Shown here in pieces: positions 52,484 through 58,236 of a stretch of 64,000 nucleotides of DNA. The notes below the pieces were generated by a model. The model was not told where the DNA came from. It worked only from the letters and a program-made list of their open reading frames with translations, and did no database searches. Source of the stretch: Salinimicrobium tongyeongense (GTDB lineage Bacteria > Bacteroidota > Bacteroidia > Flavobacteriales > Flavobacteriaceae); contig NZ_CP069620.1 of assembly GCF_026109735.1 (NCBI RefSeq), positions 2,976,001-3,040,000 of the forward strand. Reading direction: 5' to 3'. A program made the position numbers and the translations under genes. The stretch's first letter is position 1. Each line of letters begins with the position of its first letter.

Positions 52484-52523
52484 TGTACGTCCCTGATATA
52501 GGTTGACCATAAAATCAACTTAC

Positions 52524-52922
52524 ATGAAGTCAAATATTCGATTGCTCAGTAAACATCGGAAATTCTCCGATGAGTTCAAAAGACAAATTGTGAATGATTA
52601 TGAAAGTGGCAGGTACAGTGTATTTCAACTGTCTAAGCTTCACGGAATGTCACGGTCTATGATCTATAACTGGATTCATAAATTTTCTACCTTTAACGAG
52701 AAAGGTTATAGAGTTGTAGAAATGAAAGACAGTAGCAGTAAAAAGATGCAAGAGCTGGAGGCCAAAAACAAGGAACTGGAAGCAGCTTTAGGGCGTAAAC
52801 AGATACAGTTGGATTATTTAGAAAAGATGATCGAACTGGCTAAGTCAGAACTCGATATCGACATTAAAAAAAACTACAGCACCCCACAATCAACTGGTTC
52901 AGGAAAAACAAAGAAAAAGTGA
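52524..52922 (+). CDS. IS3-family OrfA, copy 2
   Basis: 132 residues, identical in protein sequence to the copy 1 OrfA; one silent difference is seen (aattctcc here, agttctcc in copy 1). HTH domain, then coiled coil. It overlaps OrfB by 4 nt. Confidence 0.9.
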   Translation: MKSNIRLLSKHRKFSDEFKRQIVNDYESGRYSVFQLSKLHGMSRSMIYNWIHKFSTFNEKGYRVVEMKDSSSKKMQELEAKNKELEAALGRKQIQLDYLEKMIELAKSELDIDIKKNYSTPQSTGSGKTKKK

Positions 52923-53761
52923 GTTATTCCATGAATCAATTCTATGAAGGCATTGGGATCAGTAAACAAGCTGTCCATCAATATGCTAGAAGACAAAGAA
53001 TTTTTGATCATCGTTTGATGGAATTAATGTCTGAAGCTGATGATATTCGTAGAGATCATCCTGGTTGTGGGGTGGAAAAAATGTACTATACTTTAAAGCC
53101 TGATTTTATTGGGAGAGATCGTTTTGTAGAGACTTTTATGCAATTAGGTTATCGTCTCAAAAGAAAGAAGAATTATAGACGCACAACCATTGCCGGTAAT
53201 ATCTACTATCCGAATAAAATTAAAGGAATAAAGATCAATGCACCTTCGGTAGTATGGCAAAGCGATATTACTTACTATCGGGTAGGAGACAAATTTTATT
53301 ATGCAGTATTTATAATTGATGTTTACACCAAGAAAATAGTCGGTTATGAAGTCTCTGATCATATGAGAGGGACAGCAAATTTAAAAGCTTTGAAGATGGC
53401 TTTAAAACAAAACAAAGCTCCTAAGATCCATCACTCAGATCGAGGAAGCCAGTATACGTACAAATCTTATACTGAACTCTTACAATCAAATACGACCACT
53501 ATAAGTATGGCCTTAAGTGCTCAGGACAATGCATATGCCGAGAGGATCAATAGAACAATAAAAGAGGAGTATCTGGATCACTGGAAGCCACAATCCTTTA
53601 GCCAACTCAAGAACCAGGTGAACAAAGCAGTAAAAAATTATAACACCAAAAGATCCCATGATCATTTAGAGAAAAGAAACCCTGAAGAGTTCATTAGTTA
53701 TTGGTCAACCCTCAAAACAGAAGAAAGACCAATTATTACTATTTTTGATAATGAAAATTAA
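52919..53761 (+). CDS. IS3-family OrfB DDE transposase, copy 2
   Basis: 280 residues with an intact DDE triad (WQSDITY, HHSDRGSQY, DNAYAERINR) and the conserved Asp in FIIDVYTKKIVGYEV, which copy 1 has lost. It is therefore the better candidate for an active transposase. Differences from copy 1 are few (Asp/Asn, Gln/Glu and silent changes). Confidence 0.92.
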   Translation: MSYSMNQFYEGIGISKQAVHQYARRQRIFDHRLMELMSEADDIRRDHPGCGVEKMYYTLKPDFIGRDRFVETFMQLGYRLKRKKNYRRTTIAGNIYYPNKIKGIKINAPSVVWQSDITYYRVGDKFYYAVFIIDVYTKKIVGYEVSDHMRGTANLKALKMALKQNKAPKIHHSDRGSQYTYKSYTELLQSNTTTISMALSAQDNAYAERINRTIKEEYLDHWKPQSFSQLKNQVNKAVKNYNTKRSHDHLEKRNPEEFISYWSTLKTEERPIITIFDNEN

Positions 53762-54912: not shown

Positions 54913-56607
54913 CTACGCCTCGCAGCTGGAGCAGCTTACAATATTTGATACAAATTCCTTGGAAACGCTTTGGCTTCTTTGGTAGTACAATGTTTTTACA
55001 CCTAGTTTCCAGGCTTCAATCAGTAGCTTGTTCACCTCTCTCACCGGAAGCCCTGCCGGGATGTTCAGGTTTAAACTCTGCGCCTGGTCTATAAACTTCT
55101 GGCGTACGGAGGCCTGCTGGATGATCTCTAACTGGCTTATCTCCTTAAAGGTCTTAAAAACGTCTTTTTCTTCCTGGCTTAAACTATTCAGGTGCTGCAC
55201 GCTGCCGTGGTGCAGCATGATGCTCCTCCAGGTATCCTCATTGTCCAGCCCTTTTTCCTGAAGGAGCTCTTTCAGGTACTTGTTCTTCCGCATAAAGTTC
55301 CCTTTTGCAAGCCCCGCCTTAAAATAATTACTGCTGAAAGGCTCAATTCCCGGCGATGTCTGCCCCAGAATGGCCGAAGATGAGGTAGTGGGCGCAATGG
55401 CCATCAAAGTGGTGTTCCTGAGCCCGTAGCCTTTAAGCATTTCTGGTTCGCCGTAAATGGTGGCCAGCTCCCTGCTCGCCTTGGTGGCTTTAGTGCTAAT
55501 GTCTTCAAAGATCTTATGGGTAAGGCCCTTGGCACGCATGCCTTCAAACGGGATCCTGTTCTTCTGCAAATAAGAATGCCAGCCCATGGCTCCCAAACCA
55601 AGCGCACGGTGATTCTTTGCAAATCGGTTTGCCGAAGACAGGTAGTAATTGCCTTCGGTCTTTGCAATAAATTCCTGCAGCACGCCATCTAGAAAATACA
55701 CGGCCAGTTTTACGGCTTCAGTATCTTTCCACTCGTCATATAATTCGAGGTTCATTGAAGAAAGGCAGCAAATAAAAGATTCTTCTTCGGTAGAAGGCAA
55801 AGCGATTTCTGAACACAGGTTACTGGAATGTATGGTGAGGTTCCTGTCTTTGTAGACCTGCGGCTTAAACCTGTTCACGTTGTCTTTGAACAAAATATAA
55901 GGCAATCCTTTTTGCTGGCGGCTTTCCAGGACTTTCGCCCAAATCTCGCGCTTTTCCATGTCGCCGTCAATCATTTCCTGCATCCAGTAATCGGGCACAC
56001 ACACGCCGTTGAACAAATTCTGAATGGGATTCCCAATGTTTTTGATCTCGAGGAATTCTTTAATATCGGGGTGGTCAATATCGAGATAGGCCGCAAAGGC
56101 GCCCCGGCGCACGCCACCCTGTGAAATGGTGTCCATCGCGGTATCAAAGAGCTTCATGAAACTGGTGGCCCCGCTGCTTTTCCCATTGTCGGTCACGGCG
56201 CTGCCACGGCCTCGCAGTTCCCCGAAATACCCCGAAGTTCCGCCGCCAATCTTGGTTTGCATGATCACCTCGCCAAGCTTATGGGTAATGCCTTCAATAT
56301 TGTCGGGCACGTATACATTAAAACACGAAATAGGCAGCCCGCGCTCGGTTCCCATATTTGCCCAAATGGGGGAGCTAAGGCTCATCCAGCCGCGCTCTAT
56401 CATTTCGATAAATGCTTCGGCCAGCTCGGGTTTGTACAATCTCCTGGCAGCAGCATTGGCAATACGTTCAATGGCCGATTTCACGGTTTCACCTTTCAGC
56501 AGATAGCCGCGGTTAAGAATTTGCTGGCTCTCGTCGTTTAGCCACCAGAGTCTTTCGTTCCTGGTTTCGTCGCCAATCAAAGGCTGGGCTTGTACATTAG
56601 TTGTCAT
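54913..56607 (-). CDS. nrdA: Class I ribonucleotide reductase alpha subunit (short form, no ATP cone)
   Basis: 564 residues; classical NrdA is 750-800. The N-terminal ATP-cone (activity site) is absent; the sequence starts directly with the ten-stranded barrel region (MSLSSPIWANMGTE). Catalytic residues: first redox Cys in LPISCFNVYV, IHSSNLCSEIALP (Asn, Cys, Glu of the radical site), then FICCLSSMNLE (second redox Cys). The C-terminal CSSCEA tail provides the Cys pair that is re-reduced by thioredoxin/glutaredoxin. It converts NDP to dNDP, using a radical from NrdB. Without an ATP cone, overall dATP inhibition must be absent or be supplied elsewhere. It follows nrdB after 36 nt. Confidence 0.93.
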   Translation of the reverse strand: MTTNVQAQPLIGDETRNERLWWLNDESQQILNRGYLLKGETVKSAIERIANAAARRLYKPELAEAFIEMIERGWMSLSSPIWANMGTERGLPISCFNVYVPDNIEGITHKLGEVIMQTKIGGGTSGYFGELRGRGSAVTDNGKSSGATSFMKLFDTAMDTISQGGVRRGAFAAYLDIDHPDIKEFLEIKNIGNPIQNLFNGVCVPDYWMQEMIDGDMEKREIWAKVLESRQQKGLPYILFKDNVNRFKPQVYKDRNLTIHSSNLCSEIALPSTEEESFICCLSSMNLELYDEWKDTEAVKLAVYFLDGVLQEFIAKTEGNYYLSSANRFAKNHRALGLGAMGWHSYLQKNRIPFEGMRAKGLTHKIFEDISTKATKASRELATIYGEPEMLKGYGLRNTTLMAIAPTTSSSAILGQTSPGIEPFSSNYFKAGLAKGNFMRKNKYLKELLQEKGLDNEDTWRSIMLHHGSVQHLNSLSQEEKDVFKTFKEISQLEIIQQASVRQKFIDQAQSLNLNIPAGLPVREVNKLLIEAWKLGVKTLYYQRSQSVSKEFVSNIVSCSSCEA

Positions 56608-56643
56608 GGTAATTTCAGTTTTAATTCGGGAATTCGGGCTTAC

Positions 56644-57618
56644 TTAAAACAGGTCGGCTGCGGTAATACTTTTATCGTGCTTGGTGTAATCTACCGGCCT
56701 TCGGGCAAAGAAATCGTCAAGGCTGTTGGCAAAGACCTCTTCCTCAAACCACAGCATGGGTTGATAATCTACTGCGCTCACGTTGTAGATCTTAGACATC
56801 CCAATGCTCTTTAAACTGTCATCTACGCGGAATTTCATAAAATCCATCAGGTTCTTTTTGTCGATATTCTCCAGTTTTCCGTTCTCGAAGATCCAGTCGA
56901 GGATCTCAGCTTCAACTTCTATGGATTTTTTCACGCTGTTAGTTAATTTCTGAATCATTTCTTCATCAAAATACTCGGGGTATTCTTCCCTAATCTGGTT
57001 GATGATATAGATACCGGCATTGGCGTGAATTTGCTCATCAACCGATGTCCACGCAATAATATTGCTGATGTTCTTCATCACACCTTTAAATCGGTTGAAC
57101 GAAAGCACGATGGCAAACTGGCTGAAGAGGGAGACATTTTCAATAAGGATAGAAAAGAGGATGAGCGAAGACACGTAATCTTTATGGTCTTTTGCCCGGG
57201 TGTGTTCCAGGGCTTCAGATAAATACCTGATTCGGCTTTTAATGGCCGGCACTTCAATGACCTTTGCAAATTCGTTGTTGTAGCCCAAAACCTCAAGAAG
57301 CCTTGAATACGCCTGCGAATGCCTGAACTCACATTCGGCAAAGGTACTGCCAAGGCCGTTGAATTCGGGTTTTGGAAGGTGCTTGTAAAGGTCGCCCCAA
57401 AAAGATTTTACCGCCACTTCAATTTGCGCAATGGCCAGTAAACTCTTTCTCACCACATCTTTTTCACCGTCTGAAAGATAGGAGTGAAAATCCTGAACAT
57501 CGGCTGTGAAATCTACTTCAGAATGTACCCAAAACGCCTTGTTTATGGCATCGGTAAAATCCAGGACCCCGGGATATTCAAATGGTTTGTAGTTTATTCT
57601 CTTTTCAAAAATGCTCAT
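56644..57618 (-). CDS. nrdB: Class I ribonucleotide reductase beta subunit
   Basis: A 324-residue diiron/dimanganese-type radical protein. Metal ligands visible: AQIEVAVKSFWG (Glu at the position where E. coli has Asp84), FAECEFRHSQAYSRLL (Glu-x-x-His and the radical Tyr), LFSILIENVSLFSQFA (Glu), SVDEQIHANAG (Glu-x-x-His). C-terminal TAADLF tail binds the alpha subunit. No N-terminal ATP cone. First gene of the nrdB-nrdA operon and directly controlled by the cobalamin riboswitch upstream. Confidence 0.93.
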   Translation of the reverse strand: MSIFEKRINYKPFEYPGVLDFTDAINKAFWVHSEVDFTADVQDFHSYLSDGEKDVVRKSLLAIAQIEVAVKSFWGDLYKHLPKPEFNGLGSTFAECEFRHSQAYSRLLEVLGYNNEFAKVIEVPAIKSRIRYLSEALEHTRAKDHKDYVSSLILFSILIENVSLFSQFAIVLSFNRFKGVMKNISNIIAWTSVDEQIHANAGIYIINQIREEYPEYFDEEMIQKLTNSVKKSIEVEAEILDWIFENGKLENIDKKNLMDFMKFRVDDSLKSIGMSKIYNVSAVDYQPMLWFEEEVFANSLDDFFARRPVDYTKHDKSITAADLF

Positions 57619-57746
57619 AACCTATTCATTTTGATTAAACAAAAGCCTAAAAAATAACCAATGGAAGAGAAGACAAGGGCCCCGAAATAAGACAGGCCAA
57701 TCTGTAGAATTCCATGACAATTACTTTTTATGCGAAAGCAAAGTCA

Positions 57747-57851
57747 TCGATCTGAAAAAGGTACTCTGGCTTGTAACCTAATGATTACTGACAGTTGCGC
57801 AACAGCTCATGATTTTCACATGATTCCCCTCCTAGAAAATATCCAGATCAA
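57747..57851 (-). promoter_or_regulatory. Cobalamin (B12) riboswitch upstream of nrdB-nrdA
   Basis: On the minus strand the core reads GGGGAATCATGTGAAAATC, ATGAGCTGTTGCGCAACTGTC, then AAGCCAGAGTACC, which fits the conserved GGGAA...GTGnAAATC...CTGTnnCGCAACTGT...AAGnCAGnnnACC pattern of the cobalamin aptamer. An 8-bp P1 stem closes it (TTGATCTG at 57851-57844 with CAGATCGA at 57754-57747, one G-T pair). The nrdB ATG is 128 nt further on; a downstream hairpin candidate ACTTT...AAAGT lies between. Binding of B12 should lower nrdBA expression. Confidence 0.9.
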
Positions 57852-58236
57852 CTATTCAATGTAAAATTAGAAAGAAACAGGCAGCAAACTTTTAGAGCCG
57901 CGTTTACTTATCAACACAGTTTTTCACAACGTCAGATTTTAAAAATATAGATACAAAGCTTTGCCGGCAGCGGGTTTGCTGTAAATGAAGTTGTTATGCT
58001 TCAGCAAGGGGTGCCAAAAATGGCATTTTTAAAACTGATTTCTGCGGAAGGATTCCGGTGGTTTCAGAAATCCCAAAAATTTCAGCAAAAACTGAAGCAG
58101 CATTGTAAAAAAAGAAAATTTTGTACGCCCAGGTGCCATTTTTTACATTTTGCGAAGTAATCAAAGCCTGGAAAAGCATCCTGCCCTTCAGCAGTAATAT
58201 TTTTACTGAAAAAGGCAGGATTTTTTGGCATTTTTT
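57852..58236. other. Gene-free stretch between the riboswitch and pntB 3' end
   Basis: No ORF or RNA is supported here apart from a palindrome copy at 58016-58030 and AT-rich sequence that likely contains the nrdB promoter (57852-57960 region). An inverted piece tgctgaagcataacaac/aagcagcat-like wording near 58000-58110 is too weak to call. Confidence 0.5.
58016..58030. repeat. Dispersed palindrome AAAAATGGCATTTTT (copy f)
   Basis: A perfect 15-nt dyad between the divergent-facing nrd leader and the pntB 3' region. Confidence 0.85.

Follow-up and report, generated by a model that had tools for sequence, protein, structure and literature searches.

An operon predicted to encode a class Id ribonucleotide reductase, nrdBA, is preceded in Salinimicrobium tongyeongense by what is probably a complete cobalamin riboswitch, which would repress the operon when B12 is plentiful. 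The region was analysed as part of a stretch of 64,000 nucleotides (the window), and the features of the proposed switch are collected in Table 1. We infer that the aptamer controls the expression of nrdBA. The least certain step is the level of control: given the folding of the start region across related leaders and the fact that no terminator-like site was found, we hold with moderate confidence that repression would act on translation.

Table 1. Features of the nrdBA operon and its leader (positions in the window)
Feature	Position	Strand	Remarks
Promoter-like element TAATTTTA	57862-57869	(-)	10 nt before P1; by eye
Cobalamin aptamer, AdoCbl-II type	57747-57851	(-)	closed by P1; Rfam 39.8 bits
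P1	57851-57844 / 57754-57747	(-)	UUGAUCUG pairs with CAGAUCGA; ends at 57851 and 57747
P4	57823-57807	(-)	aptamer helix; pair changes among 25 leaders
L5 stretch	57805-57794	(-)	UUGCG at 57802-57798
P6a	57788-57773	(-)	short extra hairpin, 16 nt; pair changes among 25 leaders
P13 hairpin	57716-57745	(-)	directly after P1; loop L13 CGCAUAA at 57734-57728
Putative alternative helix, 5' strand	57710-57733	(-)	L13, 3' strand of P13 and the bases after it
Putative distal arm X (anti-P13), 3' strand of the alternative helix	57645-57666	(-)	duplex test against shuffles
nrdB start region	57616-57647	(-)	hairpin able to mask the AUG; constrained folding, mixed in the window
nrdB, class Id type small subunit	56644-57618	(-)	324 aa; PF00268; signature E67-K71-W74
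nrdA, large subunit	54913-56607	(-)	564 aa; 36 nt after nrdB

The cobalamin aptamer

The initial annotation had proposed a cobalamin aptamer on the minus strand, and comparison with the Rfam models confirms this assignment at the level of sequence. A match to AdoCbl-II (RF01689) was obtained with cmscan at 57847-57751 (-), over the cut-off of 36.5 bits and with an E-value of 1.3e-7 for the 1.6 kb searched, and it covers the full length of the model (1-81). It is one of three Rfam matches over cut-off in the 64 kb of the window, while RF00174 reaches 28.2 bits at the same site, under its own cut-off. The ends originally given to the element are exactly those of P1, for whose duplex 3% of shuffles do as well in the window, and ≤5% in 12 of the 25 leaders described below. 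As had also been anticipated, the aptamer is compact: a single short hairpin, P6a, is left in the peripheral domain, aligned to RF01689 as a 20-nt local insert. The original coordinates hold the complete aptamer but stop short of the expression platform, P13/L13 included, the spacing from the aptamer to the nrdB start (57618) being 128 nt.

The 25 leaders comprise that of the window, 21 from the 80 named nrdB loci and three of five loci found in a pattern search, the other two of which were redundant (the locus of the window itself, and L126, which duplicates L013); the 25 leaders are related to one another, so that tests on them are not independent. In their alignment both sides change at 11 of the 18 pairs of P4, P6a and P13 (shuffled mean 7.0), and 94.8% of the cells are paired, compared with 82.4% in shuffles. 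The covariation score is 0.380 against 0.149 shuffled, a value that none of 500 shuffles reaches and that drops to 0.050-0.128 when the partner is slid by 1-3 columns. The segment from P6 to P3 has two lengths among the same leaders.

Upstream of P1, TAATTTTA resembles what we take to be the consensus of the flavobacterial -7 promoter element. A separate motif, TGTkrATAA, is located at 57916-57908 (-), upstream of nrdB. In the 450 nt upstream of nrdB it is found in the sense orientation in 65 of 81 regions (the window and L010-L089) and in the antisense orientation in four, with control values of 4% in shuffles and 1 of 80 in a segment 1 kb further up. This motif, which presumably is DnaA-box-like, occurs with and without the riboswitch, and many of the loci are close relatives.

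The nrdBA operon

The target had been annotated as a class I nrdBA operon, which holds, and it can be placed further as a predicted class Id (dimanganese-type) rather than class Ia reductase. The closest PDB chains to NrdB, 8dq4 (E 1.5e-158) and 6cwo (E 2.2e-158), match over the whole length and are, we take it, class Id small subunits of Flavobacterium johnsoniae. NrdA scores 729.7 bits with the NrdE-prime model TIGR02510 and is also matched by PF02867, and a Pfam scan at E 0.001 reported no ATP-cone in either NrdA or NrdB. The class Id signature consists of a glutamate as first metal ligand, a lysine at +4 and a tryptophan at +7 (PMC6754362), and all three residues are found in NrdB (Table 1). 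Its closest named relative, from Salinimicrobium profundisediminis, is 95% identical.

Two further elements were observed in the vicinity. About 1.2 kb downstream of nrdA, at 52503-53761 (+), there are ORFs of 139 and 280 aa that by eye look like an IS3-type transposase pair. A DUF805 RNA motif (RF03081) was detected at 51979-51915 (-) with 51.6 bits, just over the cut-off, and also at L010 5826-5891, with 57.0 bits.

The P13 hairpin, its predicted kissing loop and the putative alternative helix

In the window, CGCA of L13 is complementary to UGCG of L5 over four pairs. A script seeking such a stem, run with no shuffle control, found P13 in all 25 leaders, with 7-12 pairs enclosing CGCA; of the seven pairs of P13 that were counted, four are invariant among the leaders. 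The core of the L5-L13 contact is likewise invariant within the nrdB leaders, so that no covariation is seen there; in the btuB leader, from elsewhere in the genome, L5 carries UCCCG and the corresponding hairpin CGGGA, both loops having changed together (by eye). L5 can thus form a predicted kissing-loop contact with the downstream hairpin.

The 3' strand of P13 also takes part in a second putative pairing. The duplex 57733-57710/57666-57645 is equalled in stability by only 0.5% of spacer shuffles in the window; the alternative helix is more stable than the spacer-shuffle mean in 25 of 25 leaders (mean z -2.4) and lies at ≤5% of 200 shuffles in 19 of them. Where one strand differs, the opposite strand differs correspondingly, for instance in L021 (by eye). 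As predicted structures, P13 and the alternative helix are mutually exclusive.

This exclusion, and the position of UUUUGUUU after arm X in the window, could also suit an activating switch, in which the alternative helix and the U-rich stretch would terminate transcription without B12 and the B12-bound P13 would prevent termination. Such a design is known from the Alkalihalobacillus halodurans cobT riboswitch, according to PMC10653944. An activating switch is nonetheless very improbable here: the base of the alternative helix is A-U rich, no terminator was recognised, and the association with NrdJ described below is better fitted by repression of the class I enzyme through B12.

Folding of the nrdB start region and the level of control

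Each leader was folded twice, once with P13 enforced and once with the 5' strand of this hairpin kept from pairing. When 20 coding nucleotides were included, blocking P13 opened positions -15 to +3 of nrdB in 23 of the 25 leaders (mean +0.183, shuffles +0.014), and with 40 coding nucleotides it did so in 21 (+0.145, shuffles +0.009); in both settings the opening beat 95% of 60 spacer shuffles in 18 leaders. The AUG itself opened in 19 and 18 leaders, respectively. In the window the AUG opens in the two settings (0.15 to 0.24 and 0.21 to 0.56), but -15 to +3 is nearly unchanged (0.34 to 0.40 and 0.36 to 0.35), and in a folding run with shorter 5' context -8 to +6 closes instead (0.59 to 0.35). 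No or opposite opening effects were obtained in some settings for L036, L037 and L084. The modelled folding thus supports closure of the start region across the leaders and is mixed for the window itself. A direct duplex between arm X and the start region was also considered and discarded; it beat 95% of shuffles in only two of the 25 leaders, and the step from X to the start therefore rests on ensemble accessibility.

A consensus scan, which is not final, found no terminator-like site from the aptamer to nrdB (57747-57618), and terminator-based models were ranked lower for this reason. Precedents can be cited for a mainly transcriptional repression, in which the B12-bound leader would end transcription early (intrinsic or Rho-type) and masking of the start would be secondary. 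According to PMC10653944 the Priestia megaterium metE riboswitch uses P13 and an antiterminator formed from the 3' side of P13, and PMC4991794 describes the control of Streptomyces nrdABS as transcriptional. The result of the scan, however, and the 18 leaders in which start-region opening beats spacer shuffles speak against this alternative, which we regard as unlikely.

In the translational repression that we favour, adenosylcobalamin would dock L5 on L13 and fix P13; arm X would then be free, and the nrdB start region would fold shut. Without B12, X would pair with L13 and the 3' strand of P13, so that the start region would be open and the class Id enzyme made. The cell would in this manner switch between NrdJ, which depends on B12, and the manganese enzyme of class Id.

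Reductases and B12 genes of the genome

A B12-dependent class II enzyme, or an anaerobic alternative, had been predicted elsewhere in the genome (one contig, 3.51 Mb). The former was found: PF02867 detects two large reductase subunits, the class Id NrdA and an NrdJ that scores 486.4 bits with the NrdJ_Z model TIGR02504 (cut-off 399.95). The latter was not, since a search of the genome with PF13597 gave no NrdD. A second small subunit detected by PF00268 is an orphan NrdB of 320 aa (L121 4998-5960; G000:C1 about 1475000), 65% identical to its S. profundisediminis counterpart, in which the metal-ligand motif ISRDEGVHCDF has become VARDKGVQSGF. In two relatives the equivalent neighbourhood, near a dGTPase gene, holds nrdB together with a large nrdA (815 and 830 aa), which is absent beside the orphan NrdB; judging by length and N-terminus, we call the lost nrdA/nrdB pair a presumptive class Ia reductase. 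With no NrdD, no other large subunit and an orphan NrdB of altered motif, NrdJ and the riboswitch-led nrdBA appear to be the only complete reductases of the genome.

Searches with RF01689 and RF00174 gave two cobalamin riboswitches in the genome, that of the nrdB leader and one of 80.5 bits that precedes a btuB-type TonB-receptor gene. Genes for a binding protein, a permease and an ATPase (btuFCD-like) are located at the same locus in the opposite direction, the gene names being readings of the sequences; the B12 transport genes to which the initial annotation had pointed are thus candidates at the only other cobalamin riboswitch found. The sole marker of B12 synthesis searched, cobB (TIGR00379), was not found in the genome, whereas a cobalamin adenosyltransferase (PF01923) is present, a combination consistent with import of B12 and its conversion to adenosylcobalamin.

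It could also be the case that the same repression responds to methyl- or aquocobalamin, an explanation that differs from the one given above only in the ligand. Compact class II cobalamin aptamers preferring these forms exist, and the two lengths of the P6-to-P3 segment would be compatible with such a preference. On the other hand, NrdJ uses adenosylcobalamin (TIGR02504 model description) and the adenosyltransferase is at hand, which makes adenosylcobalamin the better candidate and a different ligand rather improbable.

Association of the riboswitch with NrdJ in Bacteroidota

The first sample consisted of 54 loci, namely 50 of the 80 named nrdB loci, the window and L122-L124; G241, in which a large subunit of class Id was not seen, and G301, which duplicates L013, were left out. 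The named loci were tested for the riboswitch with Rfam and L122-L124 by pattern search. NrdJ over the cut-off was found in all 25 genomes whose locus bears a riboswitch, and in two (L071 and L073) of the 29 without it (Fisher p 4e-13, kinship ignored). The nrdB tree provides four independent pairs for this comparison; on average 3.9 of them agree with the association, and none ever contradicts it (p 0.125). Eight of the 21 named positives (L015, L021, L022, L024, L025, L032, L034 and L037) fall below the Rfam gathering cut-off, with E ≤3.3e-4. A model, R1, was built from the 25 leaders, whose own R1 scores prove nothing since they are the sequences it was built from. Among the 30 further named loci R1 gave no match near nrdB, and two matches with E 0.7-0.9 about 1.9 kb upstream.

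A further 391 genomes of the phylum were screened for a second sample; a class Id-like nrdB at E 1e-60 was found in 31, and riboswitches were sought in flanks of about 1.5 kb. Among the 18 loci with at least 70% identity, one (G463) has the riboswitch and NrdJ, and 17 have no riboswitch, three of these with NrdJ (G754, G713 and G701); three of these 17 loci were searched with Rfam, the remainder with R1 alone. Thirteen loci had 42-46% identity, and 11 of them were examined upstream, all with Rfam, leaving out G758 and G805 (NrdJ present). An upstream AdoCbl-II over the Rfam cut-off was found in four, all with NrdJ, and NrdJ is also present in four of the seven without a riboswitch. In both samples together, all 30 riboswitch-bearing loci, including five of five from the second, are in NrdJ genomes, as are nine riboswitch-less loci. 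At E 0.001, RF01689 matches 103 of 199 genomes across the family, 11 of them over the cut-off; these counts were set aside, as that search does not tell which gene comes after the match.

Other observations concern individual loci. The phylum includes GC-rich genomes with a more divergent nrdB (42-44% identity): at L164, L165, L166 and L168 an AdoCbl-II match that exceeds the Rfam cut-off precedes this gene by 270-520 nt, and NrdJ is present in all four. The distance from nrdJ to the class Id nrdA is at most about 4 kb in L024, L025 and L028 (G411, G412 and G415), where the two genes share a contig and run in opposite directions. Robertkochia marina has, besides an NrdJ of 851 aa, a second NrdJ_Z match of 642 bits in a frame of 576 aa (L127; G403:C9:398521-400179).

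History of nrdBA and its leader

The NrdB of the window shares 89% identity with its counterpart in Zunongwangia atlantica and 76% with the one in S. sediminilitoris, while for NrdJ the order is reversed (49% and 93.5%, respectively). A single Salinimicrobium clade is rejected by the nrdB tree (p-AU 0.001, the group having been chosen after seeing the tree). From these opposite identities and the tree, nrdBA seems to have moved between genera (54913-57618 compared with L011, L026, L135 and L136). A transfer of the whole cassette, leader plus operon, was considered and not retained: the gene identities speak for it but those of the leader do not, being 82.6, 80.9 and 74.4% to three other loci of the genus Salinimicrobium and 73.3-77.8% to those of Zunongwangia, Christiangramia, Robertkochia and Gramella.

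Implications

A wider reading, plausible if a little short of probable, is that of a Bacteroidota-wide B12 switch of class Id reductases by translational relay, in which one distal arm, exchanging with a kissing hairpin, would alternately open and close the nrdB start. With the other class I reductase lost in S. tongyeongense, B12 alone would then pick cobalt or manganese radical chemistry for the synthesis of DNA precursors. This would provide a clear, testable case of an essential enzyme being swapped in response to a vitamin that is apparently imported by the cell and not synthesised. If the reading is true, removing nrdJ from a strain whose only reductases are NrdJ and the class Id enzyme is predicted to make added B12 inhibitory. 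Moreover, the pairing with NrdJ would make the B12 dependence of DNA precursor supply readable from genomes, and it would connect B12 scarcity with the manganese reductases of class Id, a recently described group.

Comparison with known systems

In the titles and abstract openings searched, we found no B12 riboswitch on a class Id reductase and none in front of an nrd operon of flavobacteria; the distribution of nrd riboswitches with NrdJ in Bacteroidota and a terminator-less relay acting on a start codon at a distance of about 100 nt were not found in the literature searched either. Individual parts of the system have close counterparts. The aptamer meets the Rfam AdoCbl-II model (RF01689) over its full length and differs from it by the extra hairpin P6a. 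NrdB resembles the class Id proteins of F. johnsoniae (6cwo and 8dq4) in its whole-length match and its E-K-W signature, although most of the Flavobacterium-labelled class Id loci examined are without a riboswitch, L021, L025 and L032 being those with one.

Kissing-loop control of P13, with exchange of its 3' strand, is described for P. megaterium metE and A. halodurans cobT in PMC10653944. The L5-L13 contact and the competition for the 3' strand of P13 proposed here are of the same kind. The metE and cobT riboswitches act on terminators, whereas in the window the consensus scan, not final, found no terminator competing with P13 as in cobT, and the start codon lies 103 nt beyond P13.

The Streptomyces precedent invoked in the initial annotation is a documented one: in S. 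coelicolor a B12 riboswitch controls the class Ia reductase operon nrdABS beside NrdJ (Borovok 2006, as described in PMC4991794). Both systems have a B12 riboswitch directly before a class I operon and NrdJ in the same genome. That of S. coelicolor, as described there, concerns a class Ia enzyme of the Actinobacteria and acts on transcription, whereas that of S. tongyeongense concerns a predicted class Id enzyme of the Bacteroidota and probably acts on translation.
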